64,000 nt of DNA from NCBI GenBank assembly GCA_963669155.1, contig OZ022591.1, positions 8,205,661 to 8,269,660 of the forward strand, in the 5' to 3' direction. The notes under the pieces were generated by a model, which saw only the letters and a program-made list of their open reading frames with translations, made no database searches and was not told the origin of the DNA. A program made the translations under genes and the position numbers. Source of the DNA: Arbacia lixula (taxonomy: Eukaryota > Echinodermata > Echinoidea > Arbacioida > Arbaciidae). Below are positions 2,829-63,758 of this stretch, piece after piece; position 1 is the stretch's first letter, and each line of letters starts with the position of its first letter.

Positions 2829-2879
<51 letters not shown>

Positions 2880-36209: not shown

Positions 36210-36404
36210 TTAGCTCGCCTGTCCCATCGTTAACGTGTAGTAGTTGCCCTTTCTTGAAACCAACTCTTGGTGGCGTCCTTGCTCTACGATGACTCCATCG
36301 CGGATGACGGCGATCTGGTCAGCGTTCTGGATGGTGTTGAGACGTTGGGCAACGACGATAGACGTCCTGCCTTTCATGGCCTTGTCCAGCGCGTTTTGGA
36401 CAAG
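36210..36404 (-). CDS. ABCB1: ABCB exon w21: NBD2 H-loop region and stop
   Basis: Acceptor GACAG, phase 0, stop TAA at 36210-36212. Codes [15 protein letters not shown], then [15 protein letters not shown]: the codon at the switch-His position is CAA (Gln). The tail is short after [10 protein letters not shown]. Confidence 0.95.
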
Positions 36405-39400
36405 CTGTCAAGGAGAAAAGAATGCATGTTACTACCAAGGTGGATCTTTTTTATTTTTTTTTAATATAATATACTGAAGTGAATGATAGCCCATGAGGAT
36501 AGACAACAAATCCAAAACTAAAATAAGACACAAGGCACTATATAAGAATCCATATGGCCCAATCAATCGTTCACAGCAGCTTAGATATCAAGAGCACCAT
36601 ACCGGTACATGTATAATGATATAAGATGCCTGTGTTCTCTGCTATTGAAGAATGGGACTTTATTGTCATGGATGTCACCGACTACTTCTTCTGGTAGATT
36701 GTTCCAGGCTTGAACTGCAGTATGGATGAACGGGTGAATACTGATTGTACATTTGACAGCAACTCTTTTAAAAATGGGGCCGAGAATGAATGACGCTGGC
36801 CAAAGTGACTGTTAGTGTGAACTAGCTGTTACCTGTTCGCTCTCGGTGTCCAAGGCCGAGGTGGCTTCATCCAGCAGCAGGATGCGTGGGTTCCTGGCCA
36901 GAGCTCTGGCGATGGCTACTCTCTGCTTCTGACCACCAGACAGCTGGGCTCCCTTCTCTCCCACCAGGGTGTCATAGCCCTGCAGGGAACACAAACAATC
37001 ATATATAAATTAAAGACAGGGTGTCCCCTTGGCAAAAGTCATGAAGCTTGGCAGGAATCACCTATACCCTAAAAATCTAAAAATACCCTAAAAATCACCT
37101 ATACCCTAACAATTACATGTATGAAATCTCACGATCATAGCTTCACAAACCTTATCAGGAAAAGTGAAAAACCATCCTTGTTTACATTTGAAATGCCTCA
37201 TTTCCGAGCGATCATAGTTTATATTCTTATACAATATTGCATCTAACAGTGTATCATGCACCACTCTGTGCCCCCCCCCCCCCCACTTCAACGAATCACC
37301 ACACAGCGGAGAGAAGCAAGGTGCGTTGCACAAGGAGAGATTCAATGTGATAAAAAGTGGGGGAAAGGTTAGATCAGGGAAATGATCAGATGAGAAAGAG
37401 GGTGAGAAAGGTTAGATCAGGGAAATGATCAGATGGGAAAGAGGGTGAGGAAGGTTAGATCAGGGAAATGATCAGATGGGAAAGAGGGTGAGAAAGGTTA
37501 GATCAGGGAAATGATCAGATGGGAAAGAGGGTGAGAAAGGTTAGATCAGGGAAATGATCAGATGGGAAAGAGGGTGAGAAAGGTTAGATCAGGGAAATGA
37601 TCAGATGGGAAAGAGGGTGAGGAAGGTTAGATCAGGGAAATGATCAGATGGGAAAGAGGGTGAGGAAGGTTAGATCAGGGAAATGATCAGATGGGAAAGA
37701 GGGTGAGAAAGGTTAGATCAGGGAAATGATCAGATGGGAAAGAGGGTGAGGAAGGTTAGATCAGGGAAATGATCAGATGGGAAAGAGGGTGAGAAAGGTT
37801 AGATCAGGGAAATGATCAGATGGGAAAGAGGGTGAGAAAGGTTAGATCAGGGAAATGTTCAGATGGGAAAGAGGGTGAGAAAGGTTAGATCAGGGAAATG
37901 ATCAGATGGGAAAGAGGGTGAGGAAGGTTAGATCAGGGAAATGATCAGATGGGAAAGAGGGTGAGAAAGGTTAGATCAGGGAAATGATCAGATGGGAAAG
38001 AGGGTGAGAAAGGTTAGATCAGGGAAATGATCAGATGGGAAAGAGGGTGAGGAAGGTTAGATCAGGGAAATGATCAGATGGGAAAGAGGGTGAGAAAGAT
38101 TAGATCAGGGAAATGTTCAGATGGGAAAGAGGGTGAGGAAGGGCACTCACGAGTGGCAGAGACACGATGAAGTCGTGGATGTTGGCCATCTTAGCAACCG
38201 CCTCCACCTCCTCCTGGGACAGCTCCCTCTCCACGCTGTAGGAGATGTTCTCCTTGATGGAGCAGGCAAAGAGCACCGGCTCCTGGCTGACAATGCTCAT
38301 GATGGAGCGCAGCCAGCCCACGTTTAGGTCCCTCAGATCATTCCCATCTAAGGTCTGTGTGAATAAGGACAAGGGAAATTCAACAGGTGAAAACAAAAAT
38401 ATATGTGCATTGTCTTTGCATGTAGTTTCGGTCTCGGTCTCAGGCAGTCATGTCTCGAAATGGGTGGTCTCAGTTTTGGTCTTATCTAAATCTCAACCGA
38501 GCAATCCCCAGATACACCACTAAGTCCATAGTGCTAACTCTGGATAAAAGCATGCCCACCATAAAATCACTTCACTTGTCAGTGAAGAAATCAAAGATGG
38601 TATCAAAGTTATCTCAAAACAAATGATCAATAAGAGAGACTTTCAAAGGGGGAAATGTTAATATTTTCATTTTCATTGATGGTAATCACATAGGTATGCT
38701 ATCATATATTCTGAAATACATCTTTCAGGTCATTAAATCAATGCAAATAAAACATGTAAATCCCCATATCAACCATTAGTAAAAAGTACATACATCTGTA
38801 TAGATGATTACTAAATCGTCTATTGTACATACAGCAGGTTATATGGGAGTCGCGGTGCTCAGCATCTGAGTGGAGGATATCCAACCCAGGAAAAAGTGGA
38901 TTCATTAGAGAATGGGTTAAATTCAAACTGAGCGATGAGAAACTTACGACGTTGCCGTGGCTGGGGTCATAGAAGCGCTCCATGAGTGATACCATGGTGC
39001 TCTTGCCACACCCGCTCTCTCCGACCAGGGCCATGGTCTGACCAGGCTTGATGGAGAGATTCAGGCCGCCCAGGACCGTGGAGGCCGGCCGGTTGGGGTA
39101 GCAGAAGACTACGTTGCTGCACTTGATGTTGCCGTCTGTGTTGGTCTATGAGGGATTACAGAAAAAGATACATAATCATGATTTATTAAGAATCATCTTC
39201 TTCTTTATCACTGCATGGTTATAGTGCTAAGAGATTAACCAGGCCATTCTTTCTCTCTCTTCCTTCTTTCTCCCCTAGTTCCCCAGACCTTCTATCCCTA
39301 CTTCTTCTCCGTTCTCATATCCCTCTCGCCCCCCTTCCCCAACACAAACATCTTTCTGCCCCTTCTATATCGCATCCTACCCCCATCTCCCCTCCCTCCC

Positions 39401-42400
39401 TCTCTCTAAACAGTTAATAAAACTCACTGGTTTGAGTCCCTCGGTGGAGTAGTTGTTGATGGGTGGTGTGAGAGCGATGAGATCAACCGGGTGATACTCT
39501 CTCTCTCCTCCTCTCCTCCCCTTATTATCCCTCAACCCCCCCCCCACACCACCTTCTATCCCTACTCCTTCCCTTTTCTCCTATCACCCTCTCCTCCTCC
39601 ATAACAGTTAACAAAACTCACTGGTTTGAGTCCCTCGGTGGAGTAGTTGTCGATGGGTGGTGTGAGAGCGATGAGATTGACCAGGTGATACTCTCTCTCT
39701 CTCCTCCTCTCCTCCCCTTATTACCTCTAGACCCCCCCCCCCACCCCCATCCCCACCACCTTCTATCCCTACTCCTTCCCTTTTTTCCTATCACCCTCTC
39801 CTTCTCCATAACAGTTAATACAACTCACTGGTTTGAGTCCCTCGGTGGAGTAGTTGTCGATGGGTGGTGTGAGAGCGATGAGATCAACCAGGTCATACTC
39901 TCTCTCTCTCCTCCTCTCCTCCCCTCCTCCCCTTTTTACCCCTCCAACCACCCCCCCTCCCCCCCCCCCCACCACCACCTTCTATCCCTACTCCTTCCCT
40001 TTTCTCCTATCACCCTCTCCTCCTCCACAACAGTTAACAAAACTCACTGGTTTGAGTCCCTCTGTGGAATAGTTGTCGATGTGTGGTGTGAGAGCGATGA
40101 GATTGACCAGGTGATACTCTCTCTCTCTCCTCCCCTCTTCCCCTTATTACCCCTCCAACCACCCCCCCCCCCCCACCACTACCTTCTATCCCTACTCCTT
40201 CCCTTTTCTCCTATCACCCTCTCCTACTCCATAACAGTTAATAAAACTCACTGGTTTGAGTCCCTCGGTGGAATAGTTGTCGATGTGTGGTGCGAGAGCG
40301 ATGAGATTGACCAGGTCATACTCTCTCTCTCTCCTCCTCTCCTCCCCACCCCCCCCCACCACCTTCTATCCCTACTCCTTCCCTTTTCTCCTATCACCCT
40401 CTCCTCCTCCATAACAGTTAACAAAACTCACTGGTTTGAGTCCCTCTGTGGAGAAGTTATCAATGTGTGGTGTGATCGATGAGATCAACCAGGTGATACT
40501 CTCTCTCTCCTCCTCTCCTCCCCTTATTACCCCTCCACCCCCCCCCCCCAACCTTCTATCCCTACTCCTTCCCTTTTCTCCTATCACCCTCTCCTCCTCG
40601 ATAACAGTTAATAAAACTCACTGGTTTGAGCCCCTCGGTGGAGTAGTTGTCGATGGGTGGTGTGAGAGCGATTAGATTGACCAGCTTGGCTGCTGATAGT
40701 TTAGCTTTGCTGAAGTCTGGCATGAAAGCTGCTGCCTGGCCCAGGGCAATCCCTGCATACGTGATCACAATGATGACCCTGGATGGAGAATGGAATGATA
40801 CAAAATATATATGAATACCTCTACACTTTATTTTCACCACAAAATATTATGCTTTGGACAATATTGGGAGATATCACTTCAAGATTAACACATCACATCG
40901 AAATAAAAAGTATGTATCTTCAATTTGCTTTCCTACGATGAACTCAAATCATTTCAAACAAGTATCATCATTAGATTTCCATAATCGCCAATAATTGTAT
41001 TAAATGGAATACAGGAATGAAGAGAATAAGCTGCTGATTAAGGAGCATGAAATTAATTTCCTTAAATTTGTTAAGGTATCAGTTTCTCACATCTTTTTCT
41101 CACATTCTCTGCGTTCTGTTTTCTACCCTTCATGTAATTTTCCTCTAAATCAATCATTATTTTTTGTTTATTTTATATTCTATTACTTTTTCACAAGCTA
41201 ATCATAAATGTGTCAGTCTATGGATTATTTTTTTTACAATGTTCACTTCAAGACAAATACAAGAATCTAAATAATTTTAATTGAATCAACAAGGACGATC
41301 ATGCAATCTGTTGGTGTGTCTGACGGGCATAAACCCAAACTCACTTGAACATGGCGTCCGAGCTCATCTGGCCGATGGCCACCAAGTGGCCACCAAACCT
41401 GAAGGCAGCAGCGAAGAGGAAGAAGACTGATGCCTGGGAACAGCAGACAGCAAAGGCAAAGAAGAACTTGTGCTTCTGGATTTTCCTGTTTGCAGAAAAT
41501 GAGATGGAGAAAGGGAGGAGAGGGTGGTAAATTCTCTATTCTTCATATTTTCAGGGTGAATCTGGACACCTTAAGTTTACTGGTTCAATCCTAGATTTTA
41601 GAAAAGTGAGAGAGAAAGAAAGAGAACAAAGAAAGAAGGCAAAGAACTTGAGCTTCTCGATTTCCTGTTTCAATTGCAGAATATAAAATTAGAAAAAGAT
41701 GGGGAGTTAGTTCTTTCATTTATTTAAGATTGTGGGATGAATCTGGACACTTAAAAATTCCTGGTTATATCAAAGATTTGCAAAAAGATGAGAAAAGAGA
41801 AAGAGAACAATGAAAGATGATTTAAACAACACTCTACAATATTGCAGCATTTTAAAATGTCAACTTGTAATTTGACCAATACGTCAAAATTTCAACTAAT
41901 ATTTTAATATTGAAAAATTCAAACGAAAATCTCAATATCTTAACACTTCTATAAATATTCAACTAATAACTCAATAATTCAACTAATATTTCAATATTCA
42001 ACTTATTATAATTATTTGATCTTATTTCTATATCTCAACCAATATTCAAATATTTCAACTTATGTTCCACATATCTAAACTTACCTGAGAGGCTCCCTGA
42101 GCTTCTCGCAATAGAAGTGATATATCCTCTCCTCCAGCAGTAGGGCAGACACAGTCGTAATGTTCTCAATAGCCTCACTCGCAATCTGGGAACAACCACA
42201 ACATGAGATCAGCAGTCAGCACAAAGATGTTGATATTTCAAAATTTCAACATATGTTCAAACAGTAGTTGAAGCTGTTGCACAGCAGCCCAATGGCCACA
42301 CTCAGTCGTCTTTTGGAGATAGTGGCTTTATAGACAGTGGTTTCACAAGACAACTGGTCTTTATAAGCATTGGTCTTTGCAGACAGTGATTTTTACATCC

Positions 42401-44039
42401 AGTGGTCTTTATAGACAATAGTCATTACAGATGGTGGTCTTTTCAGATAGAAATCTTGACAGATATGGGTATTTATAGACAGTGGTCGTTCCAGACAGCT
42501 GGTCTTAAGAGACAGAGGTCTTTATAGACAGAAGTCTTTCCAGACAACTGGTTTTTACAGATAGTGGTCTTTCCAGACAGCTGGCGGGTGTTTCACCAAG
42601 CTGTTCGTAAGTTACGAACGACTTTATGAGCGACTGGTGATCCCTTCTTGTGCTAAATGCGATACCACGCTTTGTTCATTGAGAATCTGATTTAGGACAA
42701 GAAGGGATCACCAGTCGCTCGTAAAGTCGTTCGTAACTTACGAACAGCTTGGTGAAACACCCCCCTGGTCTTTACAGACAGGTGATTTCCATAGCTAAGT
42801 CCAACTATAGAATGGACCTGAGGTTGGGTGTCCTTACCTTGGAAGCCTCCTGCAGCAGATGAGAATCCTGTTTGTGTGTACCCGTCAGCATGGCCATCTG
42901 GATACGCCCCCATAGGGTCATGAGGGGCACAGCGCACAGCGTGAAGAGCGCTAGCTGCCAGCCGTAGATGAAGGCGATCACCAACGCGATGATCACGGTC
43001 ACAATCTCGTGGATCACAGTGCTGATACGCAGACCAGTTGCCTACGGGACCAATGGAGGTTACTTTAATTAATATTCAATATTTCAATCATATAAAAAAA
43101 AATTCAACTAATAATGTTTTTGCTACTCAGTGAGGGGTGCTTTGTATCATATACATGCTTAAGTTACAATTCCAATCCATTTTTCATGATGTAGTTCTAA
43201 GTGGCAGTGTTATCATACTATAACCCCATTTTCCAATCTCCCATATAAAAGTACAGAGTGTGATAGCCAGAATATTGTTACTGGTTGTTTTAAGATGTGT
43301 TGCAATTTTGCTTCTGACTGAAGTGTTTTTTATTACCAAAAAATCTTTTCACATGAACTCAATGAAGTGGAGGAAGCATTACAAAGGCTTACAATAATAA
43401 TCAAATAAATCAAATCACATAACTGATTTTGTTTGTATTCTACAAGGAATTAATGACTTCATAGTTGAATGAATATATTGGAAAGACATAATATGGAGTA
43501 ATCTAAACAAGGCAAAGAGATGACAGAAAATGGCTGGAGAGAAATTAATGATTTAGAAGGGAAAAAAAAACAAGAAGTGAGATCCACCATGCATAGAGTC
43601 TGAAATCCTCTTCCAAGGTACAAACACAACAATGGTGTAGGAATCCAAAGAATGTGAGGTTACAGCACACAGCCTTGGCATGTAGTGTGTATATGCCTCC
43701 AAACATGTGACTGTCTGTATGTCTGTATGTACACAATATGGATATATCTACGTACGTATATGTATGTTATGTATGTATGTTTGCATGTAGGTGCGTACGT
43801 GTGTATGTTTGCATATAGGTGCGTATGTGTGTATGTTTGTGTGTGTGTATGCATGTGTGTATGTGTGTATGTACAAATGCATACGGTATATATATAATTT
43901 GCATGATTGTTTTGTTTAATTTGTGTTAATATATTTAAACTGATTGTATGAATTTAATTTGTATTATTATGGAATCAGAATAAAGATCATTGGAAAAAAA
44001 AATAAATGTATGAGTGCATGTATGTATGTGTGAATGTGA

Positions 44040-44070
<31 letters not shown>

Positions 44071-47000
44071 TGTATGTATGAATCCGTGCGTGACTACTTC
44101 ACACACTAGAACGTGCATTAAGTATTTCCTGTTTGTATGCTTGTATGAAATATTCCAAATTGTAATTTCCCAACTTACTGTTTTATATCGGTGTTTGTGT
44201 CTTTAAGTAATATGTGTGTGGTGTGGGTGAAAATGTACAATAAGCATTTATGGGTGTGTGTGAGTATGTTTATAGAGAAGAAGGGTACAACACTTACCCC
44301 CTGAACGTTGGAAGCGTCTGTGGCAAGGAGGTTAGCGAGGGAGCCGGTGTTGTGCTGAGGCTCATCAAACCAAGCTGCATCCTGTTATGAGATAGGAAGA
44401 CATTGACATTCAATTCAATTCAAAGAATCAAAAGTTTTTGCAGAGAGACAACAGATTATATAATCTTTATTTTACTGCCTGGTACCCTCCCTAGCAAAAA
44501 AGATTGATTAATCAATATGTTGGGTATAAAATTGTTGCTGTAGCATGAATTTAAAGGATTTCACGCGTTGATTCTGTGGGGAGACGCCACTATTAAGCTG
44601 TTACTTGCGAACTTAACGCACGTATGCGGAACGCAGCAAAATGGCTAGCCACGATCAGGGCCGAAGGTTTAGCTTCGGTAAGGATCGTGCATTCTAACCA
44701 GGTGGGTAAATGCGTGAGAGCCCGAGAAACAATACACAAGTGTGCGTTTTGCAAGGAACGCACGGCATACGCAATATGGCAGCGCACTAGGGATATATCC
44801 TGCGTACGACACGTGAAAGCCTTTAAACATGGTTGAGTGAAAGTCTACCTGACGGACTGATGGAGGTACTCATGCACAGACTGGACAAAATTGTTTTGAT
44901 GGCTTTTTTGTTATTGCTTGTTTTTGCATTGTCGGGGATAAATCATCCCAAGCTCCCATTAATTGTTTTCACCTGGAAAAGGGGGGGGGGGGGGGGGTTG
45001 GAGGGGGGAGGGGGGTGGAAGGGGGGGGGGTGGAAGGAGTGGTGGAAGGGGGATGGGAGGGGGGTACTGACCTGTCTGAGCATGGCCCAGAATGCCTCCT
45101 TCCTCAGCCTAAGGGTCAGCCGCTCTCCTGAGATGCTGAACATGAGCATGCTGATGAAGATGCTGACCGCTCGTACCACACCCAACACGATGAACATCAG
45201 AGACCAGAAGGATGCCGCTGCTGGGATCTCGGCTGGTGGCAGACTGAATATCTACAAACAATATACCAAGCGTAGAGTCCATGATATTATTATTTTTTTT
45301 TAAATCTTTATTTCACCCTTCATGAGGGCAGTTAGATGTACAGATGATATAATTTTTACGTTTCTATCTCAGGTATAAGATGCATTACTATATATATATC
45401 TTTCATTATCATTATAACTGCTTAGGTAGCTGAATATCTACAAACAACATACTAACCGTAGAGCCAGTGACATAATCTTGATCTTAGCAAACGATTAGGG
45501 CACTTAAATGTATAGATGATAAGTTTTTACATTTATATCTCAGATATCAGATGCATTGAATATATGAGGTTGATAAAGATAAAGGTCTAAGACTGAAATA
45601 ACATTTTTCTTCTCCGGCGTCTTCATGAATTTGTTTGTGTTTACATAAACATATCAATATAAATAGCCAATTTATCTTCCATTATCATTACTGTGAATCT
45701 ACATACAAAACACATCAAGCGTAGAGCCAGTAATATAAACTTGGACAAATGTCATAAGAACATCATGCTGTATTGATCAAAGTCGATTATTTCCAACACA
45801 GTATTCCCCCCATCTGGCCAGAAGGAAAAAATAATAGAATAGAATTATAACAAAAAAAAAGGTGTGAAGGGCACTCTAAATCTCTGTTCACTCAAGAGTG
45901 GTTTCCCTGATGCCTGATGCCGGTTAATTAGCGCCAGGGATTCATTCTCCATGCATTTAAAGATTGTCCGTCCCTTTTGCAAGCTTAAAATTTGAAATCG
46001 TCTATCACGATCGTAAATTGAAGAAAGTGTGATTCAAGACCATTTCTAAGAATATAGCATGTTGAAGCTTTCTGTGTATGTAAAAATTTCAGCCGTTAAA
46101 TTTCAAACCGACTTTTTTCCTACTACGAAAAAAGTATTAGTCTTTGTTACAGTATCTATGTGGTTATTATGCATGTGTGAAATCCTAATTTTATGAGTAA
46201 TTACCAAACTTTGGAAGAGATTCCTCCTATAGAATATTTTTTTTCATAATGCGTTTTATAATTTAATAAACAGATTAATCAATAAAGCAGATATTTCAAC
46301 ACAAACTGCTAAGAGCCTGAGGTAAAGACTATTAATCAGACGTTGTTTACGTGCATTATTTGAATTCTACACTACGTATCAGTTTCAAATGATGAATATA
46401 CAGCTTGCTAACACTTCTCTATATGTTTTGCCAATGTTTTGATGGTTTTGTGGTGATCTGAAAAAGGGAAGGGCTGTCTTTAAGCAAATACAGACAATTA
46501 CCTATGTTTACATACTCATACTTAAAAAGGGAAAACACATTCCATTCCTACTAGGTACCCAATTAATAGCATGTACTATACAATATTGTGAGGATTTGCT
46601 GCAACAAGAACTTAAGAAGAACTGTGAGGGTACTTGTAGCCTTACCCTGATGATTTCTGTGAGCAGGATGGCCAGCGTGGGCAGAGCGGCTCCAAGGAAT
46701 GCAGCGAAGATGCAACCAATGATGATGTAAGTCTTCTCAGGGGCATTCAGCTGCAGGATCTGCTTGTAAGACAGCTGGGGCACCTCAACATGAACCTTCT
46801 GTGAACGTTAATGATAAATAGAAATGATTATGATAGAGGTATTAATAACAATAGTGACAGTAATACTATTTGAAACAATAATAGTAATAATAATAATTCT
46901 AATGATGCTACTACTAATAAAACAACAATAACACCAAAAGCAACAATGACAGTATCAATAGTAATAATACTTATCATGATAATCACCGTAGTGACAATAG

Positions 47001-48489
47001 CAATAAGAACAATTTAATAATAACAATCATCATGAAAATGATGATAATACTGTAAATAACATAAACTTGATATCGAGTGCATCTGATAAAAATCTATGAA
47101 ACAAGCTACACAAATACGAGTTACTGTTATTTATATCAATGATGCTTCAAAGCACAACAAGAAGTAATCCTCATAAATGTACAAAGTTGGAAACATAAAA
47201 TTCCTCAAATATCATAGAAATTGTCAGTCATCAATGCACTGACTTCTTGATTATCTAATTCTCATTAACTTTCCAGAGAGACTTCTCAGCTCCCTTAATA
47301 TAAAAGTAAATGAGGTCAAGAGCTTGTCGGTGTCCTACCTCTTTCCGCTTGGCCTTCTTGTTCTTCTTCCTGGCCTTGGTGGGTGCGTCAGGCTCATCCT
47401 CCAGAAAGGCCTTCCCGTTGCCGTTGCCATGGCCGTTCATCGTCAGGATGAGCTCCTCATTGGCCGAGCTGTACTTGACTGAGTCCGAGGAGGGGGAGGA
47501 GGGGGCCGAGTCGTTGACGGACGGCAACCGATGCAGGCTCCTCTCATCGTCATCTGTACGATAGGCGGAAGAGAGAGAGAGAAAGAAAGAGATTTCTTTC
47601 ATATGTTCGTTCTTTCATCATTGTTACCATGAGGAATCACTGATTGCAATCACTCATGCAAGAGTTGTTCCTAAATTACAGAGAGTACCAAAGTGTCATA
47701 TGAGCATATATCAAGTCAACCGTTTCCAAACTATGTGAGTAGAGTAAAACATCAGTGATCATAGCGGGGACTCTCATTGGGAGTGCCCGACACTAGCCCA
47801 CTAGACAATGTTGGACCAGTGAAACTCTCACTTAAGGGATGTTGTTTAGAACCAGATACTTGCATAATAATTGATATGGTGACACATCTACGGTACTCTT
47901 AGTAATTTCGGAACAACTCTTGCATGCTTTGTTATGTGATTATTATTGCAGTACTGTAAATGTGCATTACATTTTGCGAGCAAAGCAAATTTCCAAGAAT
48001 GGACATTAAATAATTCAATAGTTTACTAATGACTCAACTAGTGTTGCCAATTTGAAGATGTAGGGATCACTCAACCTTTTTTTCATTATAAATACCATTA
48101 CAAAGGTGATACGTATCATTAAATGACAAAATCGATTTCACCTTGTTTTATTTGATGTATCTTTTACATTCTTTTTTTTTTTTTTTTTAGAATAATTGAG
48201 ATGAAAATGTATAACCCAACATCACAGTATTGTGGTGTGTAGTCCCAGATGGATTGAAGATGCAAAAAGTTTTATTCTCTCATATTGGTGGTATCAAGGG
48301 CACAAAAAATAAAGTTTGAAAACGTTAAATATGTAATGCGAGGTAAGCATTTGCAGAACTAGAAAAGGGAATGAAATACAAGTTATTGTAATGACTTGTA
48401 GTAATTGTTGTGGTTAAGTGTGGCAAAGACAGTCCCGAAATACATGGACAATGTCACAATGTAGACAATTTTCACACTTATACTCACAA

Positions 48490-48565
<76 letters not shown>

Positions 48566-51500
48566 ATACACACATCCACTCTATGTCCACTGCACCACAG
48601 ATGGGAATGGGGGGAAATACCAGTACAATCTCTCTGATTCATCACAATGATATGCATGCAATGGCATATCCAACTGTCCACTCCACAGCAATGCAAAACA
48701 GACACAGAAGCAATTAACCTCTGTAAAGACATGTAGAATGTATGTTTAATCAATCAGACTTAATTTTATCATCTGCAAATTAAGGCCGGCTGAATTGAAA
48801 TGAATTAAGGAACATATGGTAGTGTATGTAGACAACACATCTGTCTCAGTGTACATTTGGCCACTGTACTTCAGTCCTTACTGATATACTTTGACACACA
48901 TAACATATACAGCCCAGTCAGATCTATGCTGCCCTACTCTGACAAAAAGGAAGCAAGTGACAAATCACTCAAATCTGGGTTATTGGTACTCTTAGATTGT
49001 ACCCAGCATTCCCTACATACATGCACAATCTGGACAAGAAATATTCATCTTGCGGCGAGATATTCAATCTAACATGATGTGGAGTTGCACTGATGCCAAT
49101 GCAAGTGACAGACACATTTTGCTCATTTACAAGAAAAGTCTCATTTGTTAGTTGCTTCCTTTTGTCAGATTAGGGCAGTATGTAAAAAGACTACCAAAGG
49201 TATATCCAGAGGATATTTTTCTGTACAGATCAATCTACATGTCAAAGATTTCCTTGGGAGCTAAATGCTCTGTTGTCCTGTTATTCATCTCATTACCATA
49301 GGCTCATTCATTATGCTCAAATCAATGGTCTCTTCATGCCTTGGTACCAAGAGAGGGTTAAAGTTATGTTACATTTCCAAGGAGCTATGGTAGAAAAGAG
49401 ACATATATCTCTTTAAGTACATGTAGGCTATGCATAGCAGTTTTCAGAGGCGGTATGGTTAAGTGAACAAATTGCAGGAAAATTAACCCCCATAATTCAA
49501 AAAGTAGCCCCCATGAATTACAAGAGAACCCCTAAGAAAGAAACAAACTTATTGTCACATTTGATGACTTGACATTTGATGTTTGAAAGAGAACCCCCCT
49601 CCCTAAACACACAAACATATATTTTATCCCTTGTATGATTGCTACCAAAATAGGTTTTCCTACACACATTGGCTGAACTCTGTACACCAATTCTCTGTAT
49701 CTATTCTTCTGCAAATATAGTCATAACGCACACATCAGTCAACACACCATTGAACATTTACATATGATATAACATAATATTGTTGTGCAATCAAGAAAAA
49801 ATGAGAGCAAGTTCTTATCAACTCTCAGTCATTGTCTGCCACTGTGTTTTGTTTTGTCCATATCTAGTTCCCCTCCCGCCGTTGGTTTCTCACGCTATCT
49901 CAAGATAAAGCTCTTGCATCTCATTCTATCATAAAACGCCTCCTAGCCTGGCTTCCAGGCTGTTGAGCATTTCTAAACTAACTTATTCCACAAATGGGGT
50001 CTGGCTGCAGTAGACTAATCATTCACAATTTAGTCTCTGGCTTGACAGACTATGAAAACAGGAGATTGATCAAGTGACTAGTCTTATGAATACCAGACTC
50101 TCTTTTTTTTTTTTTTTAGTTTGGATTAGAAATGTCCCAAAGCCTGGGACCAAGGCTAAGGGTAACTCACCATCTGTTGTTCATCTTTCCTGTACTTCAA
50201 TCTTTATATGTAACATAGCTTCCTCTATTATACAAACATTAATGTGGCTCTTCTTATTCACTGTTTCTCCTGCATTTATAATCTAGCATGCCCTTTGCCA
50301 TAATCAAAATTCCTTCAACCATCTCTACCTCCTGTCAAACTCTTTGTTTTTTCTTGCTGTTTCGTAATTTCTTGAGAACATTGACTTGGGTTTGAAATTC
50401 AGTTGTTGCATCATTTGTTCTTCTTCATGTTTAACTTAGCTACTGCAAACAACACATGTATACTCTGTGGGTGTGTGTTTTTGTATATTTCTAGATGGAT
50501 TATTTCCCTAATGGGTGGGCTTTAAAGAAGGCATTGCCTTCCTGCCTGCTCATCAACACTTATTTAATTTTGTTTATTTGTGTTCAATCTGTTTATGTTT
50601 CAATCTATTTATGTCATGTTTTTTCTCGATGTATGTATTTCAATGTTATTGTGTTTAAAGTTGCGTTGGAATAAAACTTAACTGAACTGAACTTTTAAAC
50701 TGTCCTTAATTCATTCATCTATCCCCATCATTTAAACATCCATTCATTCATTGCTTCATCCATTCTTCCTTCCTCTACCCCTTCATCACTTCCTCTATCC
50801 ATCTATCCTTCATTCTATCCTTACAATTAGAGTGACATCGTCCACCACACATTCCTTACTCCCTCCCTCCATACATCCTTCAATCAATCCTTCACTCCAT
50901 CTTTACCATTGAGAATGACATCGTCTTCCTTCTTGAACATCTGTAGAGTGACCAGCTGTCGGTAGATACTCTCTCTATCCATCAGAGTCTGGTGGTAACC
51001 ATACTCCCCACACATCCCTCACTCACTTCATTCATCTATCCATCATTCGTTCCTTCCCTCCATCCATCAATCCTTCATTCCATCCTTACCATTGAGAATG
51101 ACATCGTCTTCCTTCTTGAACATCTGTAGAGTGACCAGCTGGCGGTAGATACTCTCTCTGTTCATCAGAGTCTGGTGGTTGCCAAACTCCGCGACGCGTC
51201 CCTCCTTGATCACGAAAATAACATCCGCGCTCTGGACGGTTGAGAGGCGGTGGGCGATCACCATCGTGGTGCGTCCTTCCTGGGCCTGGAGAGGGCGATA
51301 TTCAATTTGATTACATATAATACGCAACATCTCTATGGGTCCCGTCTTATGAAGAGTTGCTATTGATCTGAATCTATCACAATTTTGTATTTTTTAGGTA
51401 AATATTTCAATCTTTCTACTATATCATGTACCTTTTGATGTATGTATTTCAATGTTGTTTGGTAAGAAAGTGTTGAAAAAAATGACCTGAACTGAAGTAA

Positions 51501-54500
51501 ATGAACTGAAGTCCAATCTCCTATCTCTATGGAAGTCTAGAGATTGATCAGTTTTGTGCGGACTGAACAAATGGCAATGATGTGTGCTTTTCTCAAAGCG
51601 TTGTGGGAAATTAAGAATGTATTCAGAGTTGGGCTAAGTAGGGCTGATATGTGAGGTATGGCCACATCCCCTGTAATCTGTGTGTGGATGAGTTCTTGAC
51701 CATGTGTCTGTCCTTACATGATCCAGGGCGTCCTGCACCAGCTTCTCACTCTCACTGTCCAGGGCCGAGGTGGCTTCGTCCAGCAGCAGGATGCGTGGGT
51801 TTCTGACTAGAGCTCTGGCGATGGCCACCCTCTGCTTCTGACCACCGGACAGCTGGGCCCCGCGCTCACCCACCATGGTGTCATAGCCCTGCAAGAATCA
51901 GCATTCAACATTCAACATGTTACTAGAGTACAAATTAAAGCTTTTTTTTGACAGATTATTCAATTTTTTAACAATTATGATGATACATGTATCTCTCCCT
52001 CAAAAAGATTGTGGACTTGCCAAAATGTTTTTTAATAAAAAAGGGTCCTCTGGGCCGAGTCTGGCTTATTCCGATACGCAGTCTACCACTACACAGCTAC
52101 AGGTGGAATACTTCACCATCACTACACATAAATCCCATCGAGCAAGCACGTAAAGGATTAACCTATGTGAGATTGACCAAAAAAGTTTTTTATTTCCTGA
52201 ATGTCTTCATTACAGGTAGCCCATCCCCTTTGCAGACCTGATTCTGAAAGTTCCCTGACTTTGTCATCATTTGAGAGAGAGTGACTATATAACCTTTCCC
52301 TGGAATTGACAAAGTGTGATATTCGGTTTTGAGGAAATAGTCTTCAATAATTGATTGAGGTTTCTTTTTTCGTACCACGAAAAAAAATGAGTAATTTCAA
52401 ATTGTGTCAACGGTCGGCAATCAACTGGAATCAAATCTCAGTGAAAACTAGTTAGATTTTCATTTATTCTACGGGAGTGATAGTACCTCTGGCCTTAAAA
52501 TTTCACACTAGGTATCCCAAAGATACGTGCTAAATATGTGCAAACTTTCATGAAGTTTGCAGATGTTTGTAAAAGGGACGGGCCATCTTTAAGCTCTAAT
52601 TAACATTTCATATATATTTCATATACTGGTGATCAATGCCTAGATTTCAGGACTTTTGTAAAAAAAAAACACAACTGCACAACCTTAAACAGTAGCAACA
52701 CACAGAGAGCCTCAACCAAGTGGCAGACCTACCTTTGGTAGTGAGGAGATGAACTGGTGAGCGTTGGCCTTCTTGGCGGCCTCGACGATCTCGGCTTCGC
52801 TGACGCCCTCGTGGCCGTACTCAATGTTCTGCCTGATGCTGCAGTTGAACAGCACCGGCTCCTGGCTCACCACCCCGATGTTCTCTCTCAGCCACGCCAC
52901 GTTCAGCTGCCGGATGTCATGCCCGTCTATGCACAACTAGGAATGATAATTATAATAATAAAAATAATAATTATAAAACTAAGAACAATAACAGTAATAC
53001 CTTAATGTATTACTGGTTCTAATTGATAGCAATAAAGCTATTTATAATTCAACAACATGATAGCGCTTACAATCTCACATAAAGACACCAATTTTGAAAT
53101 GATTCTGATTATAATTACTCACAGTAAATGAAGGTACAGCCACACCTAATCGCTGACAATGATTATACAGATGTTTACAATGTAATCATGATCTTAAATG
53201 ATCTTCAACACAGTTTATGGGCAAAGGTGTACAATGCTGCTCATGAATATTCATGCAAGACATAATCTTTGTTTTGCTGTTACTCTGCATAGTAATAAGA
53301 ATGGTTGATCAATTTGTTAGCATAGAAGCAAAGAAAAAGAGAACCATGATCATTTTCAAACAGATTAATCAATCAAGCTTATTCCTACAAAGAGTGCGTC
53401 AAAACAAAGATTATATCATCTTTCATGGCTCTGCAAAACATGAAATTCTTGGAATAAATATTGCTTCAGTCTCGAACCTCTCCTGCTGTGTGGTTGTAGA
53501 AGCGCAGCAGCAGCTTGACGATGGTTGACTTGCCACACCCGCTGGACCCGACTAACGCTATACGCTGCCCTCGTTGGACCTTGAGGGTCAGGTCCCGCAG
53601 CACCGGCACGTCTGGCCTGATGGGATAGTTGAAGCGCACCTGACGGAACTCGATGTCGCCCTCTATGACCTTCGGCTTCATGCCCTTGTCCTTCCGCTTG
53701 TCAATCTCAGGCTCCTGGAGAAGAAATAATCCAGATTATTTCTTAGTTTGTTTGCTCTTAAAAGACTAAGTTTCCATCCAGAATCTTTGTTCGTTAAACC
53801 AGTGTTGAAATCTTATTTGATACAATGATTGTACACTGAAAGAAATTCTACATACAGTATCAATGACATCATAATCAAACCTCAATAACAATACACTCTA
53901 AACAACATAATAGGTCTGGTATCCAGACTACTCACACTATCAATGATATCATAACTTTACAGCTGGCATGTACGTAGTCAAACCCCATTAAAAACATGTC
54001 CTGAACAACAAGAGGGTCTGGTGACCTAAGACTACTCACAGTATCAATGATATCATAACTTTACAGCTGGCATGTACATAATCAAACCCCATTAAAAACA
54101 TGTCCTGAACAACAAGAGAGTCTGGTGACCTAAGACTACTCACAGTATCAATGATATCATAACTTTAAAGCTGGCATGTACATAATCAAACCCCATTAAA
54201 AACATGTCCTGAACAACAAGAGGGTGTGGTGACCTTAGATTACTCACAGTATCAATGATATCATAACTTTAATGCTGGCATATACATAATCAAAAACGAA
54301 TGAAAAACACATCCTGAACAACAAGAGGGTCTGGTGACCTAAGACTACTCACAGTATCAATGATATCATAACTTTACAGCTGGCATGTACATAATCAAAC
54401 CCCATTAAAAACATGTCCTGAATAACAAGAGGGTCTGGTTACCTACAGTAAGACTACTCACAGTATCAATGATATCATAACTTTAAAGCTGGCATGTACA

Positions 54501-57500
54501 TAATCAAATCCAATGAAAAACACAAGAGGGTCTGGTGACCTAAGACTACTCACAGTATCAATGATATCATAACTTTAAAGCTGGCATGTACATAATCAAA
54601 CCCAATGAAAAACACGTCCTGAACAACAAGAGGGTCTGGTGACCTAAGACTACTCACACTATCAATGATATCATAACTTTACAGCTAGCATGTACATAAT
54701 CAAACCCCATTAAAAACATGTCCTGAACAACAAGAGGGTCTGGTGACCTAAGACTACTCACAGTATCAATTATATCATAACTTTAAAGCTGGCATGTACA
54801 TGATCAAACCCAATGAAAAACACGTCCTGAACAACAAGAGGGTCTGGTGACCTAAGACTACTCACAGTATCAATGACATCATAATTCATTTCCCTGCCAT
54901 CAAACCTTACAGCATGCATGTATATAATCAAACCCAATTCTCCCTATCGCATATAGCCGATATCAAGCGATATCACCTCACGATACCGATATCTGATCGA
55001 TTGCTCTTGGGACGTATACTTCCGGTAAGAGTTGGTTGTCGGCAGAAAGTGACCAAGAAATCACTTTTTTTTATGAATTAAGCAGTGAAAATTTTGTGTA
55101 GGGTTGTGGTTAGGGTCAGGGTTAGGTTTAGAATAAGATTTAGGGTTAGTGTTAAGGTCAGGGTTAGGTTTAGGGTTAATATTCATAAAATTAGTTGGAT
55201 ACCCTGGACCCTTATATTGTACGGGATTGCCGAATGTTCGTGGACCGGAAGTTCATATCCCAAGAATTAAAGGTAAAAAAATTAGAGCGCCACACACGTT
55301 CAGATTCGGAGAGCTATATGCGATAGGGAGAATTGAGTACACACCATAAAGAACAAGATAGGTACGGTAACTACACTACTCACAGTATCGATGACATCAT
55401 AGACGGCCACTGCTGACCCACGGGCCGAGGCAATGGCATGGATGGACGGGGTCAAGTTACCGATGGACGATGACCCGGACCAGATACAGAAGAAGACGGT
55501 CACTACATCACCCCCAGTGATTCGGCCCTCGCTGACCATCTTCGGACCGTACCTGGTGACAAGGAAACAGGAAGTATTAGTTAGGTTTAGGCATTGAGAA
55601 GAGATTGGAAGAGAGACATTGGATGTTACATATAAAGGTCTGACTTAAAGACTAGCACAAATGTACAGTTCAGGTTGGCAAACACAGTTGTTCAGTAAAT
55701 ATTTTGATGACATTGTTTATCTGGCAAAATAAATCTGGCACGGCTTTCTGCATCTGCTGTTTACCAGGCTTGAGAAGTAAAAATAATATTCACATTTTGC
55801 TATTAGAATGGGTGTTTTTTGGCATAGAGTCTTATCCCTCACCGCTTCCCTTCAGAAATTAACCCTCTACGCATTTCCATTAATGAATACCCACAAATAA
55901 GGAACACAAGAAGTATAGCAAGTCACATAACTGACAATAATATACAATATAATGAATTCTATTTGCAAAATTTTGCCGAGATGACTGATAAACTTTTAAA
56001 TGTGCCTGGAAAACAGTCACTTCATTGGTGAGCCAGTCAATCACATTAGTCGGCTTGACTGCATCAATTCATGCACACTTAACAGAAATGTGAGATGAAT
56101 TAGGAATTAAATAGAAGTGAATAAACGGAAAAGACCTTCATGATTTACATGTGTGAAAACACTTTGAGTGTTGGCACTTAAAGGGCATATACTGTACTAG
56201 GAAGGCAAAAAGGCCTTCAAAATGTAATTGTTAGCAATCTTCTTGCCAATGGTCTTAAATTCATGTATTGTCTATTTTAGAAGCTTGCTGAAATTTATTT
56301 GCCCTCAAATGATCTACATTTAGATTAATGAGTAATTAAATCACAAATCCTCAAAATGTTTGGCCCAAACATTTTGAGGATTTAATCCTTAATCCTTAAT
56401 TACCCCATATGTGGATCATTTGAGGGCAAATAACTTTCAGCAAGCTTCAAAAATAGACAATACATGAATTTAAGACCATTGGCAAGAAGATTGCTAACAA
56501 TTACATTTTGAAGGTTTTTTGCCTTCCCAGTACAGTATATGCCCTTTAAACATTGGTTCTCAAAGTGCCATTGATGTGAATTTGCACAAGCAATACAGAG
56601 ATGCACCAGCTCTCCGCGCCGCAGTGATGCTGTTAGCAGAACCCCGCTGACAGATAAACTGACCGGTGCAATATGGTTTATAAAGCTAGACTATGGTCAT
56701 TTTCGAAACATGATGTTTCAAATGTAAACAAGGATAGTTTTTCAGTTTTTGTTTTAAAAGAGTTGGCAAAGCTGTGTTGGCACTCACCATAATGAGAGGG
56801 CGTAGGTACAGGAGTAGAAGAGGTAGCTGAGACCAATCCCGACACCACTGGTGATGCCCTTCTTAATCCCTGCTGCCTTGGCAACCTGGAGCTCCCTCTC
56901 GTACCTGGGATGAAAAACGATGCAGGCATGTCAATCACTATCAAAAGACAGGTCTAAAGAATGTAGCCAATGGCTGACGGAGGTGTCAAGGTGTTGTTTG
57001 TGAACTGTAAATGAAAATTGTGTGGTTCCAGGAGGGTGTTTCATGAACGTTGTCAGCACTGACGAAATGGTCAGTGCTGGCAACTTCAATGAAATCCTCA
57101 ATTTTGATTGGCTGAGAGGCCCTAGCCTCTGACTGTTACTATGGTAACTGTCGGAAAGAGACAGGTTGTCAGACGAAAAAAGTTCATGAAACGCCCTCCA
57201 GGTTTAACCTTTACATTGCCAGGCCTTGAAAACTCCATTGACTTTCTAAACGTCTTCACGCCAATGGCAATGAGGGTTAAGCTCATCCATGGCACTTGTG
57301 TACTTCAGCAAAAATACATTAATCCACATTGCTGCTCTCTACCCAGGTGTATTACTGGGTACCTGGTTGGAATGGAGTGAGTGCGCTTGAGTGGCTGCCA
57401 TGATTCTAAATGAACCCTTGGGATTGGTCAGATGTCACAAAGACTTACATGCATCTGATGAACGGGGTAATAGCATTGTAAAGCGCTTAGAGACGATACC

Positions 57501-60500
57501 TTTTCATAGTAGGTGTCATACAAAAACTGTGCATTACCATCATTATTCAAGTCATATGTTAATGCATTAATTTTTCCCATCGCTGCCAAGTACACTTGAT
57601 CTGAAAGTCAAACTATTCATGTAAAGATTTTGATGACAATTTCACACAGGACAATACACTGCTAATGAACCACTGATATTGTGACAGCCCAAAGGATTCA
57701 TGACTGATGGTTTTTGATCAGTGGATATGAACATGCATCATAAATAACAGATCGAGCTTGCATATCAAAAATATGACCATGCGATGATTGTTCTTGATTG
57801 TAGCCAACAGCTCTAACACTGACCTAGAGAGTTCTTTCTTCTGCCCTCCAAAGGCCATGACAGTTCGTATACAGGACAACACTTCCTCTGCCACGCCCCC
57901 TGCCTGCGAGTAAGCCTTCATCTCTTGCTTCGTCATCACTGATATCACCTGCAATCAAAGAAATATATTCAGATTAGATCATATTAGATTAGATTATATT
58001 AGATTATATTAGATTATATTAGATTATATTAAATTATATTAGATTATATTAGATGATTTTAGATTATATTATATTAGATTAGATTAGACAAGACTAGATT
58101 AAAGGAAAATGCCATAATAATCACAATCATCATTAAACATTTACGTAGCACATACCATACACATCATTGCATCCTTTTTTGCAGAACAGAAAACATAAGG
58201 GATGGAAATAGTGCACTGCTTTCATAATTGTGATATATCCATGTACGACATTTGTTTCTTTGTACAATAATGAACCATATTTAATGAACCATTCAATCTA
58301 GACAATGTGGAATCAAATTGATCCCAATTATTACATAAATGGATGTTTGTACGCAAACTGGTACATGTACATTTTCCTTTGTATTTAACAGTTTTAAACA
58401 TTCTAACTTAATCTCACTTGCAACTTGCATTTTACATGTATTGTATAATGGGAGGTATTATACAATGCATAATTATCTGACATAACAAGTGACTTTTATC
58501 AGACATTTGTATCACTCATCAACAAAGCAATAAAGCATGACCTTTGGAATCCAATAATAAATCCCCAAGAGGCTGTTTTGAAATGAGTCTCGACGATATG
58601 TTAATTAGAAATGGAAATATTGCTCACAAACGCACAAATATTCATGTACACTGTATGCCTTGCAGGTGAATGATATGACAATATTCATTACACGTGGGCT
58701 CAGGGGCATTTTAGCCCCCGGCAATGCCTGAAACAGCCCCTGTGAAGAACAAAAGAGCCCCTCTTTTTTTTTCCCATCCCCAATGCATTCCATGATTCAT
58801 GGTATCCCTTCCTCAACACCAGGTTTGAAAAATACCCCCCCCCCCGCCCCTCTCCACCCCTACCCCCACCCCCAATATTTTTTTTCATTTTTCCCCTAAT
58901 TAGAAAAAGCACTCCATTCCTTCCTTTGTGTACTGCTCTGCCTACATGTACAGTGTAGGTTATCATTGCTAGCACATACTGTATGATGTGTAAAAAAAAA
59001 GGCTATGTAATTTGATGTCTAATCATTGCGCTTTTGTACCTACACTACAGCCCAAAGGAATTGGCATAGGGAAAGGGAAAGGGAAAGGGAAGAAAGGGAA
59101 GGAGCCGCAGTTTTAAACCACGGTATGCAGTATTTTGTCCAGTTCAGCATGAAATATGATGCTTTAGCCTAAAAAGCATCATGTTTCAAGCTGAACTGGA
59201 CAAAATATACTGCGGTTTAAAACTGCGGCTCCTTTCCTTTCTTCCCTTTCCCTTTCCTTATGCCAATTCATTTGAGCTGTAGTGTTCATGTGTTTATATC
59301 CATATGTTTACAATGTATTGTGTTATAATGTATTGAGTATAAATTCAATCCAATTTAAGGAATGTCATCAAATAAAGGCAATCAAATTTTTCTAGCTACA
59401 CATATACCAGAGTAAAACATCAAAATGCATTTTTGGTGCTTTCTTTCAAGGCAAATGTCATAAAATAAACACAATAACATATATTTTGCAATAATAACCC
59501 TTTGAGGTAAAAAATAATTGTTTTTACAGAGCTCTCTAGTTTTTCATGGGGATCTATTTTGCATTGCAGGGGAAAATCTCCCTGAGCTCCTTTCCACTGA
59601 AAAGGCTACTGTAAGTCATAAAAGACAATACAGTATCTTTATATTTTATCTATTTTGATGAAATTTGAAGAGATGTAAATTAGTATTCCACAATAAACCA
59701 TTTTAATTATGTACAGTGTATGTAATCTGAAGCATGTTATTTGAACAATATGTTAATGATCCTAAAGCTGTCAGAGGTTTGTCTGACTAGCAACAGCTAA
59801 TAGAATAAGAATTACTACATACAGGTGAATACAGTAATAACACAACTCCACATTCCTGACAGCAATCCATCAACTAGATTTAAAGGGAATAAACTGTACT
59901 GGGAAGACCAAAAGCCTTCAAAAGGTGATCGTGCACAATCTTCTTGCCAATGGTCTTAAATTCATGTATTGTCCATCTTAGAAACTTGCTGAAAGATATT
60001 TGCCCTCAAATGATGCACATGTGGAGTAATTAGTGATTAAATCACAAATCTTCAAATTGTTCGGGCCGAACATTTTGATGATTTGTGATTTAATCACTAA
60101 TTACTTAAAATTTTGATCATTTGAGGGCAAATAACTTTCAGCAAGTTTCTATTAAAAATGGACAATACACGAATTTAAGACCATTGGCAAGAAGATTGTG
60201 CACGATCACCTTTTGAAGGCTTTTGGTCTTCCCAGTACAGTATAGTCCCTTTAAAATGTCGAGCCAAAGCCTTTTTCACAGCTAATCTCTCCAAAAGAAT
60301 TTTCTGACTCTTGCACTCTCTGCACAGTAAGGGGGAAAGTTGTGAATTGCATTATGAAAACAGCTTAGTATTACAGACATTATTTAGGATGGTCCTACTG
60401 GTGACCGAGATACTCACATGGGCCATGAAGCCACTGGAGATGACCAGGACAGGCAGGACAGCCATGATGACAATGGTCAGCTCCCAGCTGGTTATGAAGG

Positions 60501-63500
60501 CAAGAATGAAACCTGTACAGAGGAGAGGAGACAGCAAGAAATAGGAGCTGGGTTTATACATGAAACGTGAAATAGTAGCTGTACATCAATATACATGTAT
60601 ATGAATATAATGTGATATACATGTAGTAACTGTGTTTATTCACGTATATCAATACATGAATATATAACATGATATAGTAGCTCTGTTTATACACTGTTTA
60701 TCAATACAAGGATACAACAAAATATAACCATGTTAACCATTCTCAATTTCTTCTCCAGCTCGCCCAAGGAGAAAGCAAAAGTGATTAGTCTAGCGATTAC
60801 TAGACTCTTTTCTGTCAGTATGGATTAAAAAAAAATATCAAACAGCCTGGAAGCCAGGCCAACTGAATCCTTAAGATTTAAAACGCTCAATGACATATGG
60901 TGTAGGACACAGTGTGTCTTGCACAGGACATACATGTATGTATGGACGACATTGCACACTGGAATTAATTGAAGACAGGTAATTGTTGCTGGTACGCCAT
61001 TTACACTATATCTGACTGGTTTTTTAATTGCAGAGGTGGCTGGCTTGTGAGATAAAGAATTTTTACATAATATTTTTGCAATTTAATCTTTCGCCCACAG
61101 GTTTTGTGGCATGGTCATAATACAAGTCAATTCAATTCGAGATTTACTGATAAAAACATACATACATGCATGGCAGCCAAAGGCTGAATTTCACAAACAT
61201 GTGAACAAACTTAAAAAAATTGGATAAAAGATACAATACAAATATTTGCATTTAATCACTCAGTAAAGACATGGCATCCACAAAATAGACAAGTTCTATA
61301 TCATTCCTGATGACCTTTTTATCGCTTCTTTTAAATTGATAAAAAAAAAGGTGATATCACTTGATCAGCAATATGCAGGTAATGGTAATTGAAAAAGAAC
61401 AATGTCTAATTAAATGTAGAATTATTTTAGGTCGTTCAACAATATGATTTTTTGAAACACTAACTATGCTTTACATGAACAAGTACGGATGTGGTGTGTG
61501 TGGGTGTTTTTTTTTCTTCATTAAATGCAATGGTCCATACATGTATTACATTCCAAAAGTAAAATATCTACTCTGTAGTAGTACTTTGTGGTCTGGCAAT
61601 GTATGTACCGGCAACAGTCTCACAAGGTCCTAATTTGAACTTAAATTCCTGTCTTACTTTTAATAGTAGACAAATGAATCATACATAGACACATACCAGC
61701 ACACCTTGACAGGGAAGATATGTTTATGAGTGAATATGATGTGCCATTAATATTGCCCACAGAAAAACATTAACCCTACGTATGCCAGATGAACTGCTGC
61801 TCTATGGGACTCTTGTGTATAACTTGTGCTTTGTGCAGAAAGTCACATGTGGCGCAGAAGGAGTTTAATTGAATTTTATGGAACTTTTTTTTAACACAAA
61901 GGGCACTCAGGAAATATTACTCCCATTCAGTTAAAACCTACTTCCTGCTTGGACTTGTACTGGTAATAGCCTTAGTAAGTTCTTGGCAATTGTAGTCAAT
62001 GTTTTTAAATTGGGTTAAGGAGCTTTTTTTTCTGGGGGGGGGAGAACAAATTCATCCTGTGTCCTTGCTACTTATTGTCTGGCTTCATATCTTCCTTTGT
62101 GTTTTTCATACCTTTTTGCGTGTCATTTTGGATAAAGTGATTTTTCTTTCAAGCATCGTTCAGCCACTAACGATTTGTACGAGTTTATTTTTTTTAAATC
62201 ATTATTTTCAATGAGTGATGGCCTAATTCATGCCTTTCAAACCCCGTCCATGGTTCGGTCAAAGTAATTTGACCCTGACATCATCATCAAAGCAGAAACC
62301 AAGTGGGCATGGATTGAAGCTAGTGATTATTCTCAACTTCCCATCAATATTGCAATAGACCATTTTGGTAATTTTTCCTGTAACTGCGTAGTCATGCGTT
62401 ATTACCTCCACCAGTATTTTGTAATTCAGTTTCAATACAGGTGGTAGGTGCAATTACAAATGACAAACTTCGGACAAGCTTTGGGAGTTACCATGAGTAG
62501 CTTATTGCTTGAACAATGTGAATAAAATTTGCATACATAACGAAAATGGTCTATTGATTGCAGTCAAATACACTCAGCTCAATGTATATACATGTATATA
62601 GTGATTCGCTGCAATAAATAAGAAATGGCACCATTCCCGCAGACTTGCAACTTTTTTTGTTGCTTCTACCACAAACTTTTAAAATTTTAACATGTATTAT
62701 CATGCAGTTAAGTTTATTTTGATCACAAAAATGACAAATATACAGGAGGTGCCAACAGAGCCTGTGACAACCACCTGCAGTACGAGATGAAATCCAGCAA
62801 AATATTTTGTTATTTTGTAACAAACATGAAAACAACTTTATTGAGATTTCAACTCTACCTGCATAGCAATTAACATCTCTCATGTGTATCAAAGCATGAC
62901 TAAGTTCAGATCACAAACCATTCATAAAGTACATTTCAATTAATCTTACATTGTGAAGGCTTGGTACACATTGGATTAAAAAGCATTTGTGGAGTCATGG
63001 TTTTGAAAGCTTTGTTGCGTTATAAATTATTTAAGCACTGTACACGGTTTTTATAGCGAATTGAGGGTTTTGTATTTTCAGTGTCCCCGCATTGCTAAAG
63101 ATCGCAGAATATTTCAGTGGCCCAAATGTATCAGATATGGAGGACTAACTGAAATGTTGTTTGTCGATATCGTTTAAACTTCCCCAAACAATGATTTGTA
63201 TGGTAACAAGATGCTATTCAAATCAATATTTCCAAGTAAACTGTAAGATTTGTTGTACAATCATACTTTTTTGCGATTGTCCATACATGAAATTTGTATC
63301 AGAAATATGTTGTATGTAAATTCAATGTGACAAATATAAACTTAAAATGAATCAAAAGTAAAGATGTTTGTGGTATTCACTCAAGGTATGTACCATTTAA
63401 ATTTTTAAGTAGTCAAAATTATGCTAAATATATTTCTAGATATAAAAGATATGTCAAAATGAGTTTTCTTACAGAGCTTCTATATAACAGCATGACAGGG

Positions 63501-63758: not shown

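Follow-up and report, generated by a model that had tools for sequence, protein, structure and literature searches.

Why should several introns of a single transporter gene have grown, as it appears, from their 5' splice sites? The question was raised by an initial annotation of a 64,000-nucleotide stretch of the genome of the echinoid Arbacia lixula (the window; G000:C16:8205661-8269660 in a 607-Mb assembly). On its minus strand, positions 36210..63758 carry the 3' portion of a gene of the ABCB1/P-glycoprotein type, 27.5 kb with 21 exons in the window, the upstream remainder lying past the window's high end. Joined on splice consensus and reading frame, the 21 exons are bounded by GT-AG sites and give one open frame of 1,122 amino acids plus a stop. 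The predicted protein matches ABCB1 in the PDB (8y6h) colinearly and over both halves of the full transporter, with query residues 1 to 1121 corresponding to chain residues 178 to 1275 (E = 0). Exons are numbered in transcript order from w1 (63682-63758), an inferred numbering that all four introns of the initial annotation (w5, w9, w17, and w19) fit. The mitochondrial gene order of the assembly agrees with an echinoderm source: contig C590 has nad1 (2229-3131), cox1 (5902-7242), and nad4L (7502-7783) on a single strand. Chordates have nad4L in another place, after nad3. The arrangement in which the blocks cox1-trnR-nad4L-cox2 and nad1-trnI-nad2-16S lie together on one strand is that of a sea cucumber and, with small changes, of a sea urchin (PMC7396427); starfish have the nad1-nad2-16S segment inverted (PMC3308324). 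The source is most likely of sea urchin or sea cucumber type; amphioxus was set aside, as was a sea star from the strand of nad1.

Exon ends and donor sites copied into introns

Intron growth at donor sites, the core of the initial annotation, is real: the 3' end of the exon, together with its donor, is copied into the next intron 10 times at w5, once at w9, and 6 times at w17, and a minisatellite lies just inside the w19 donor (Table 1). The further claim that all four arrays start at or within 10 nt of a donor stands for w17, for w19 (at +9), and for w9, which is a two-copy duplication and no array, but not for w5, where the array begins ∼500 nt from the real donor with an insert between them.

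Table 1. Coordinates of exons and repeat features in the window gene and its paralogs
Feature	Position	Strand	Details
Exon w5	55384..55552	-	Real donor GATACT/GTGAGT (slash, exon end)
w5 array	53925..54884	-	TRF, ten 104-bp units
Insert splitting w5 array from exon	54937..55337	.	Ends inverted, as judged by eye; approximate edges
Exon w9	51090..51285	-	Real donor TCAATG/GTAAGG
w9 extra exon-end copy	50907..51020	-	91.3% over 115 aligned nt
Exon w16	41345..41485	-	Acceptor-spanning tandem duplication on upstream side
w16 whole acceptor-spanning duplication	41462-41817	-	Self-alignment; copies diverged to 71%
Copied acceptor and exon head of w16, in upstream intron	41642..41670	-	90% over 30 nt
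Exon w17	40622..40778	-	Real donor AAACCA/GTGAGT
w17 array	39394..40684	-	TRF, ~204-bp units; exon tail, donor, and purine-rich intron
Exon w19	38151..38354	-	Real donor CCACTC/GTGAGT
w19 minisatellite	37363..38142	-	TRF, 43 bp x 18; starts at intron base +9
Low-complexity G-run tract (C-rich on transcript)	44981..45064	-	Starts at +8 of w12 donor
10-bp minisatellite, acceptor side	57964..58086	-	Ends 16 nt upstream of w3 acceptor
Shared w18-homolog duplication in paralogs	L011:4300-4497, L014:428-625, L015:5315-5512		

Each of the 10 units at w5 contains an exon end, a GTGAGT donor, and intron sequence, and the intron measures 1,669 nt versus about 420 to 530 nt in the paralogs described below. 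Only 18 nt of the unit still match the present exon (E = 0.002). The insert carries degenerate TTAGGG-like repeats (55099-55178) and is absent from the computed list of palindromic elements. In a search of the 607-Mb genome that skips simple or very common words, no w5 unit was reported elsewhere, all six matches falling in its own array. A dispersed satellite or a transposon-carried array was rejected for w5, and for w5 only, because the unit was reported at its own locus alone.

At w17, where the initial annotation had the repeat include the exon end, the final ∼63 exon nucleotides are indeed part of each unit, together with the donor and ∼140 intronic nucleotides. Exon bases 95 to 157 recur six times at 81 to 97% identity, and GTGAGT is present at all seven donors, one real and six copied. 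The exon-proximal copy is the most diverged (81%), the remaining five being 92 to 97% identical to the exon, which is the pattern expected of a minisatellite whose edge escapes homogenization. The intron has a length of 1,476 nt, compared with about 490, 843, and 293 nt for its paralog counterparts. The single additional copy at w9 comprises the last 115 nt of the exon plus a donor that has mutated to GTAAAG. No exon copy was found in the w19 minisatellite by exon-copy alignment; the array only abuts the donor, in an intron of 1,171 nt versus about 370 to 570 nt in the paralogs.

Features passed over in the initial annotation include the low-complexity tract at the w12 donor and the acceptor-spanning duplication at w16, in which exon bases 3 to 24 are copied at 91% identity in the exon-copy alignment. 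Arrays also occur on the acceptor side of w3 (Table 1) and, in AT-rich form, at the w7 acceptor. Separately, palindromic MITE-like elements lie in the gene's introns at 42583-42765, 47655-47926, 56178-56549, 59042-59285, and 59879-60255, and the ends of those at 56178 and 59879 look alike.

The consensus is kept at 16 of the 17 copied donors (6/6 at w17, 10/10 at w5, and 0/1 at w9). On read-through past the real donor, the first stop is met 27 (w5), 7 (w9), or 19 (w17) codons on; therefore, the full protein needs the first donor, and an early stop would also result if a copied donor were spliced. From the open frame, which uses the original donors, we infer that splicing normally proceeds at the original junctions.

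Array copy numbers were taken from one assembly, and the copy number of a long array can be misassembled. Assembly error in repetitive introns is nevertheless an extremely unlikely source of these features, since the units differ from one another by many substitutions, the copies in the two-copy duplications are no longer identical (91% at w9 and 71% at w16), and like events recur at other loci. In the same assembly, the short contigs C350, C443, and C245 carry ABC ATPase frames, with four of six matches free of stops, and these contigs are probably bacterial contaminants.

Duplications in the paralogs and their distribution over donors and acceptors

Three ABCB1-type paralogs (ParA, ParB, and ParC) lie on the same contig as the window gene, and boundary-spanning duplications are found on the donor side in all three and on the acceptor side in two. 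The tail of the exon homologous to w18 is copied together with the donor region in ParA (77% identity), ParB (84%), and ParC (several copies, 78 to 96%). Because the start of the intron and the junction region are alike in the three genes while the divergence differs, this duplication apparently arose once, ancestrally, and expanded afterward in ParC. The copied ParC segment begins where exonic GGTGG...TGTGG meets intronic (TGG)n, which suggests seeding by short homology. A further ParC exon (L035:5190-5426) is followed by four extra copies of its end (91 to 97%). The acceptor-spanning events consist of a 96% copy with AG intact in ParB (L014:1289-1492) and two copies, at 87% and 79%, in ParC (L015:4285-4425). 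Two events are marginal, one at a donor in ParC (L035:8713-8902; the w9 homolog, 10 exon bases, 70%) and one at an acceptor in ParB (L013:2413; 15 exon bases).

The creation of new introns was rejected as an explanation, since, in most cases seen, matches to paralog exons start and stop at the residues where the window exons do. Two paralogs additionally have arrays at or just past their coding ends, with the stop position inferred (L014:2674-2966, 44 bp x 6.6; L028:2259-2538, 138 bp x 2).

The many intact copied donors could be read as functional decoys that selection maintains because they regulate splicing or the amount of transcript, a role that the title of a paper on the human IFI6 minisatellite suggests for that gene. 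Beyond the 16 of 17 donors that keep the consensus, nine donor columns are invariant in the w17 alignment, and column conservation is 0.96 over the 21 columns from the donor on versus 0.79 in the remainder of the intron, a value partly lowered by the counting of G-run gaps. The exon-derived columns are nearly as conserved (0.94), however, and with the G-run gaps this means that recent turnover may explain the w17 pattern. The use of a copied donor would also bring an early stop, and none of the three paralogs has a clear duplication at the donors homologous to those of w5, w9, and w17, the one event at the w9 homolog of ParC being marginal. Neither the w17 alignment nor the paralog comparison gave a clear sign of selection for decoy donors, and we consider selected decoys very unlikely.

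Tandem events in the four ABCB1-type genes were tabulated by an unbiased self-alignment and compared with random placement. The w5 array was assigned to the donor-spanning class by hand, as its units carry the exon end, w19 was entered under "other," and the two marginal paralog events were included. The 27 events divide into 8 donor-spanning, 4 acceptor-spanning, and 15 other, and the boundary-spanning units measure 94 to 237 bp. Random placement predicts 3.0 events at donors (P = 0.006) and 3.0 at acceptors (P = 0.36), and the donor-minus-acceptor difference gave a P of 0.07. The window gene, which was picked for this feature, contributes nine events, three at donors and one at an acceptor versus 0.67 expected for each (donor P = 0.024). 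The paralogs, which were not so picked, contribute 18, with 5 at donors and 3 at acceptors versus 2.3 each (P = 0.07 and 0.42). With the w18 event that they share entered a single time, these become three donor and three acceptor events of 16 versus 2.0 each (P = 0.31 and 0.33).

Copies of exon ends were also sought in the flanks of 103 exons, 21 curated in the window gene and 82 predicted. On the proper side, they were found at 8 of 103 donors and 3 of 103 acceptors. The reversed-flank control gave none at either end, and the wrong-side control gave one donor, itself a copy, and no acceptor. Four rows were dropped, namely the matches on C1 and C2 (doubtful exons), ParC 7127-7320 (a copy), and the terminal ParC exon, which is without a donor. 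This leaves 4 of 99 donors (w17, w9, ParB w18, and ParC w18), with w5 and ParA w18 under the threshold of the scan. Part of the training of the exon finder used the window gene, which also served for its scoring; there, 17 of 20 exons were exact and all 19 predictions overlapped a real exon. The blocks from contigs C1 to C4 were exon poor, with 3, 4, 7, and 12 predicted exons in 40, 40, 40, and 50 kb. Among the predictions, near-identical exon pairs lie in opposite orientation ∼20 kb apart (L024:6060-6896, minus strand; L026:7540-8376, plus strand), in a block with two 369-codon frames.

These counts bear on whether minisatellites simply arise at random, with neither preference nor filter, and strike boundaries in proportion to unit size. 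With only the first or last unit considered, spanning was seen at 20 (3.4%; donor sense) and 34 (5.7%; acceptor sense) of 594 random intron points, rates to be set beside the 8 of 103 donors (4 of 99 after filtering) and 3 of 103 acceptors of the exon-copy scan; with every unit counted, the figures were 43 of 334 and 47 of 334. The paralog counts with the w18 event taken once agree with random birth as well. The donor excess over all four genes and the association with G-rich flanks described below do not, and we regard purely random birth as improbable.

TRF arrays touch 8 of 73 donors versus 5 of 77 acceptors (P = 0.39), a count in which w17 was taken from another TRF run, as TRF on the transcript strand misses the first w17 unit. 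At 1,096 random points, arrays were met 33 times in the donor sense and 37 times in the acceptor sense. Relative to these points, donors were enriched (P = 0.003; 4 of 53 outside the window gene, P = 0.09), with a P of 0.19 for acceptors. Boundary-spanning duplication thus occurs at both intron ends, and the donor specificity implied by the initial annotation is supported by neither the paralog counts nor the TRF comparison. An excess at donors is suggested, most of it due to the picked gene. Elsewhere in the window, a second gene, on the plus strand, has an exon whose predicted donor is followed, 6 nt in, by a (GT)n/52-mer array (21884-22236); the translation looks like a cyclic-nucleotide-binding domain.

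Strand composition of donor flanks

R-loop formation or replication slippage had been proposed in the initial annotation as a mechanism common to the four introns. In a fuller form of the R-loop proposal, a G-rich nontemplate strand inside the 5' splice site would favor R-loops or G-quadruplexes, breakage or slippage would follow, and the exon end and donor would be duplicated. GC skew on the transcript strand is +0.45 for the w17 array (about +0.8 for its intron part), +0.93 for the intron part of w9, and +0.18 for the w5 array; it is -0.79 for w19 and -1.0 for the w12 tract. R-loops as the sole cause in all four introns were rejected, since w5 and w19 are without the strand skew that this would call for. 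By unit, skew is high in four donor-spanning duplications (w17, +0.80; w9, +0.92; ParC w18 homolog, +0.62; and the ParC L035 exon, +0.66) and low in ParB (+0.11), ParA (+0.09), and w5 (-0.20).

The flanks themselves were compared over 70 introns of the four genes by using GC skew in intron bases +7 to +126, with values of >0.4 called G-rich and with the marginal ParC L035:8713-8902 event not scored as donor-spanning. A donor-spanning duplication is present in 4 of the 5 introns with a G-rich flank and in 3 of the 65 others (3 of 58 intermediate and 0 of 7 C-rich; Fisher P = 0.0002, post hoc). The paralogs alone gave 2 of 2 versus 2 of 48 (P = 0.005), the window gene alone gave 2 of 3 versus 1 of 17 (P = 0.046), and a rank test of flank skew over all introns gave a P of 0.005. 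The association was drawn post hoc, and the bases measured are in part those of the duplicated unit. It speaks for the R-loop proposal.

Several observations weigh against transcription-linked amplification: the low skew of the ParB, ParA, and w5 units; the C-rich transcript strand at w19 and w12; acceptor-spanning units with skews of -0.03 to -0.65; and a mean skew of -0.03 in the first 120 nt of 64 introns. Among 16 other tandem events, located in midintron or merely touching a junction, 3 had a skew of >0.4 and 4 a skew of < -0.4, with no formal test applied. This mixture speaks against a general driving role of G-rich strands in duplication and is compatible with a filter. At donors, units rich in pyrimidines would place acceptor-like sites ahead of each copied exon tail, so that purine-rich units might be the ones tolerated. 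In a direct but weak test of such a filter, the best acceptor score upstream of decoy donors was somewhat lower than that at 256 random points (medians, 5.5 and 6.0; P = 0.085; 24 decoys, not independent of one another). We hold transcription-linked amplification to be possible but unlikely. The broader proposition, that introns in echinoderms grow from donors because a G-rich transcript strand just inside the donor favors duplication of the exon end, through either R-loops and G-quadruplexes or a purine-tolerant splicing filter, is equally doubtful.

Relation to amphioxus mirages and origin of the arrays

The closest known kind of structure is the amphioxus "mirage," of which the gene family studied here is an echinoderm instance that recurs within one family. 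Mirages are described as minisatellite-like tandem duplications at 5' or 3' exon-intron boundaries of the globin genes BflGb6 and BflGb9, Adh3, troponin C, and PGBD5; these genes reportedly continue to be spliced regularly, and the mechanism is called unclear (PMC3087553, PMC3902484). The two systems share tandem units that span the boundary, AG/GT signals that are often kept, edge copies that escape homogenization, and unit sizes of the same order (10 to 160 bp in amphioxus versus 94 to 237 bp here). In the window gene, units span the boundary at the w5, w9, and w17 donors and at the w16 acceptor, and those at w5 and w17 form minisatellite-like arrays, w9 and w16 having two copies only. Both kinds of boundary are involved across the four genes, one of the 8 donor events and one of the 4 acceptor events being marginal. 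Edge divergence was examined at w17 alone. The present case differs in that it concerns an echinoderm rather than a cephalochordate and that, within a single gene, three donors and an acceptor are affected. A narrow combined literature query for boundary-spanning minisatellites in echinoderms matched only the amphioxus PGBD5 paper, which is no proof that none is in print.

Boundary-spanning tandem duplications in amphioxus have been put forward as a route to new introns (PMC3087553), and intron gain by tandem duplication has been described in potato (PMC4974935). There, as here, duplication across an intron-exon boundary copies the splice signals. In contrast, no new intron is seen in the A. 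lixula genes, in which junctions fall at the same residues as in the paralogs and existing introns are merely longer. Another tandem repeat that multiplies a donor site is the minisatellite of human IFI6 (6-16), which, going by the title of the paper concerned, reportedly provides multiple splice donors in the transcript; the copied donors described here are known from genomic sequence.

The arrays are probably mirage-type tandem duplications that arise throughout introns, sometimes span a boundary, and survive as long as the original junction stays in use. Local intronic duplications, for which short homologies or simple repeats are the probable seeds, would at times happen to include an exon-intron boundary and would then expand by slippage or, presumably, by unequal exchange. 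Those copies would survive that let splicing keep the original junction. After donor-side copying, the intact exon and its own donor would stay first in line, and after acceptor-side copying, the intact acceptor would stay beside the full exon. The outcome would be a longer intron that accumulates decoy splice sites. The donor excess over all genes (P = 0.006), the enrichment of TRF arrays at donors relative to random points (P = 0.003), and the link to G-rich flanks count against a form of the mirage reading that has no donor preference, and the last of these hints at a specific mechanism.

The occurrence of several cases in one echinoderm gene and its paralogs suggests that the process may extend beyond lancelets. 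The association between G-rich donor flanks and duplication is a lead worth following, as it depends on orientation and is testable in any annotated genome. These natural arrays, in which a real donor is followed by as many as 10 intact decoys, would also allow the choice of the exon-proximal site by the spliceosome to be tested.
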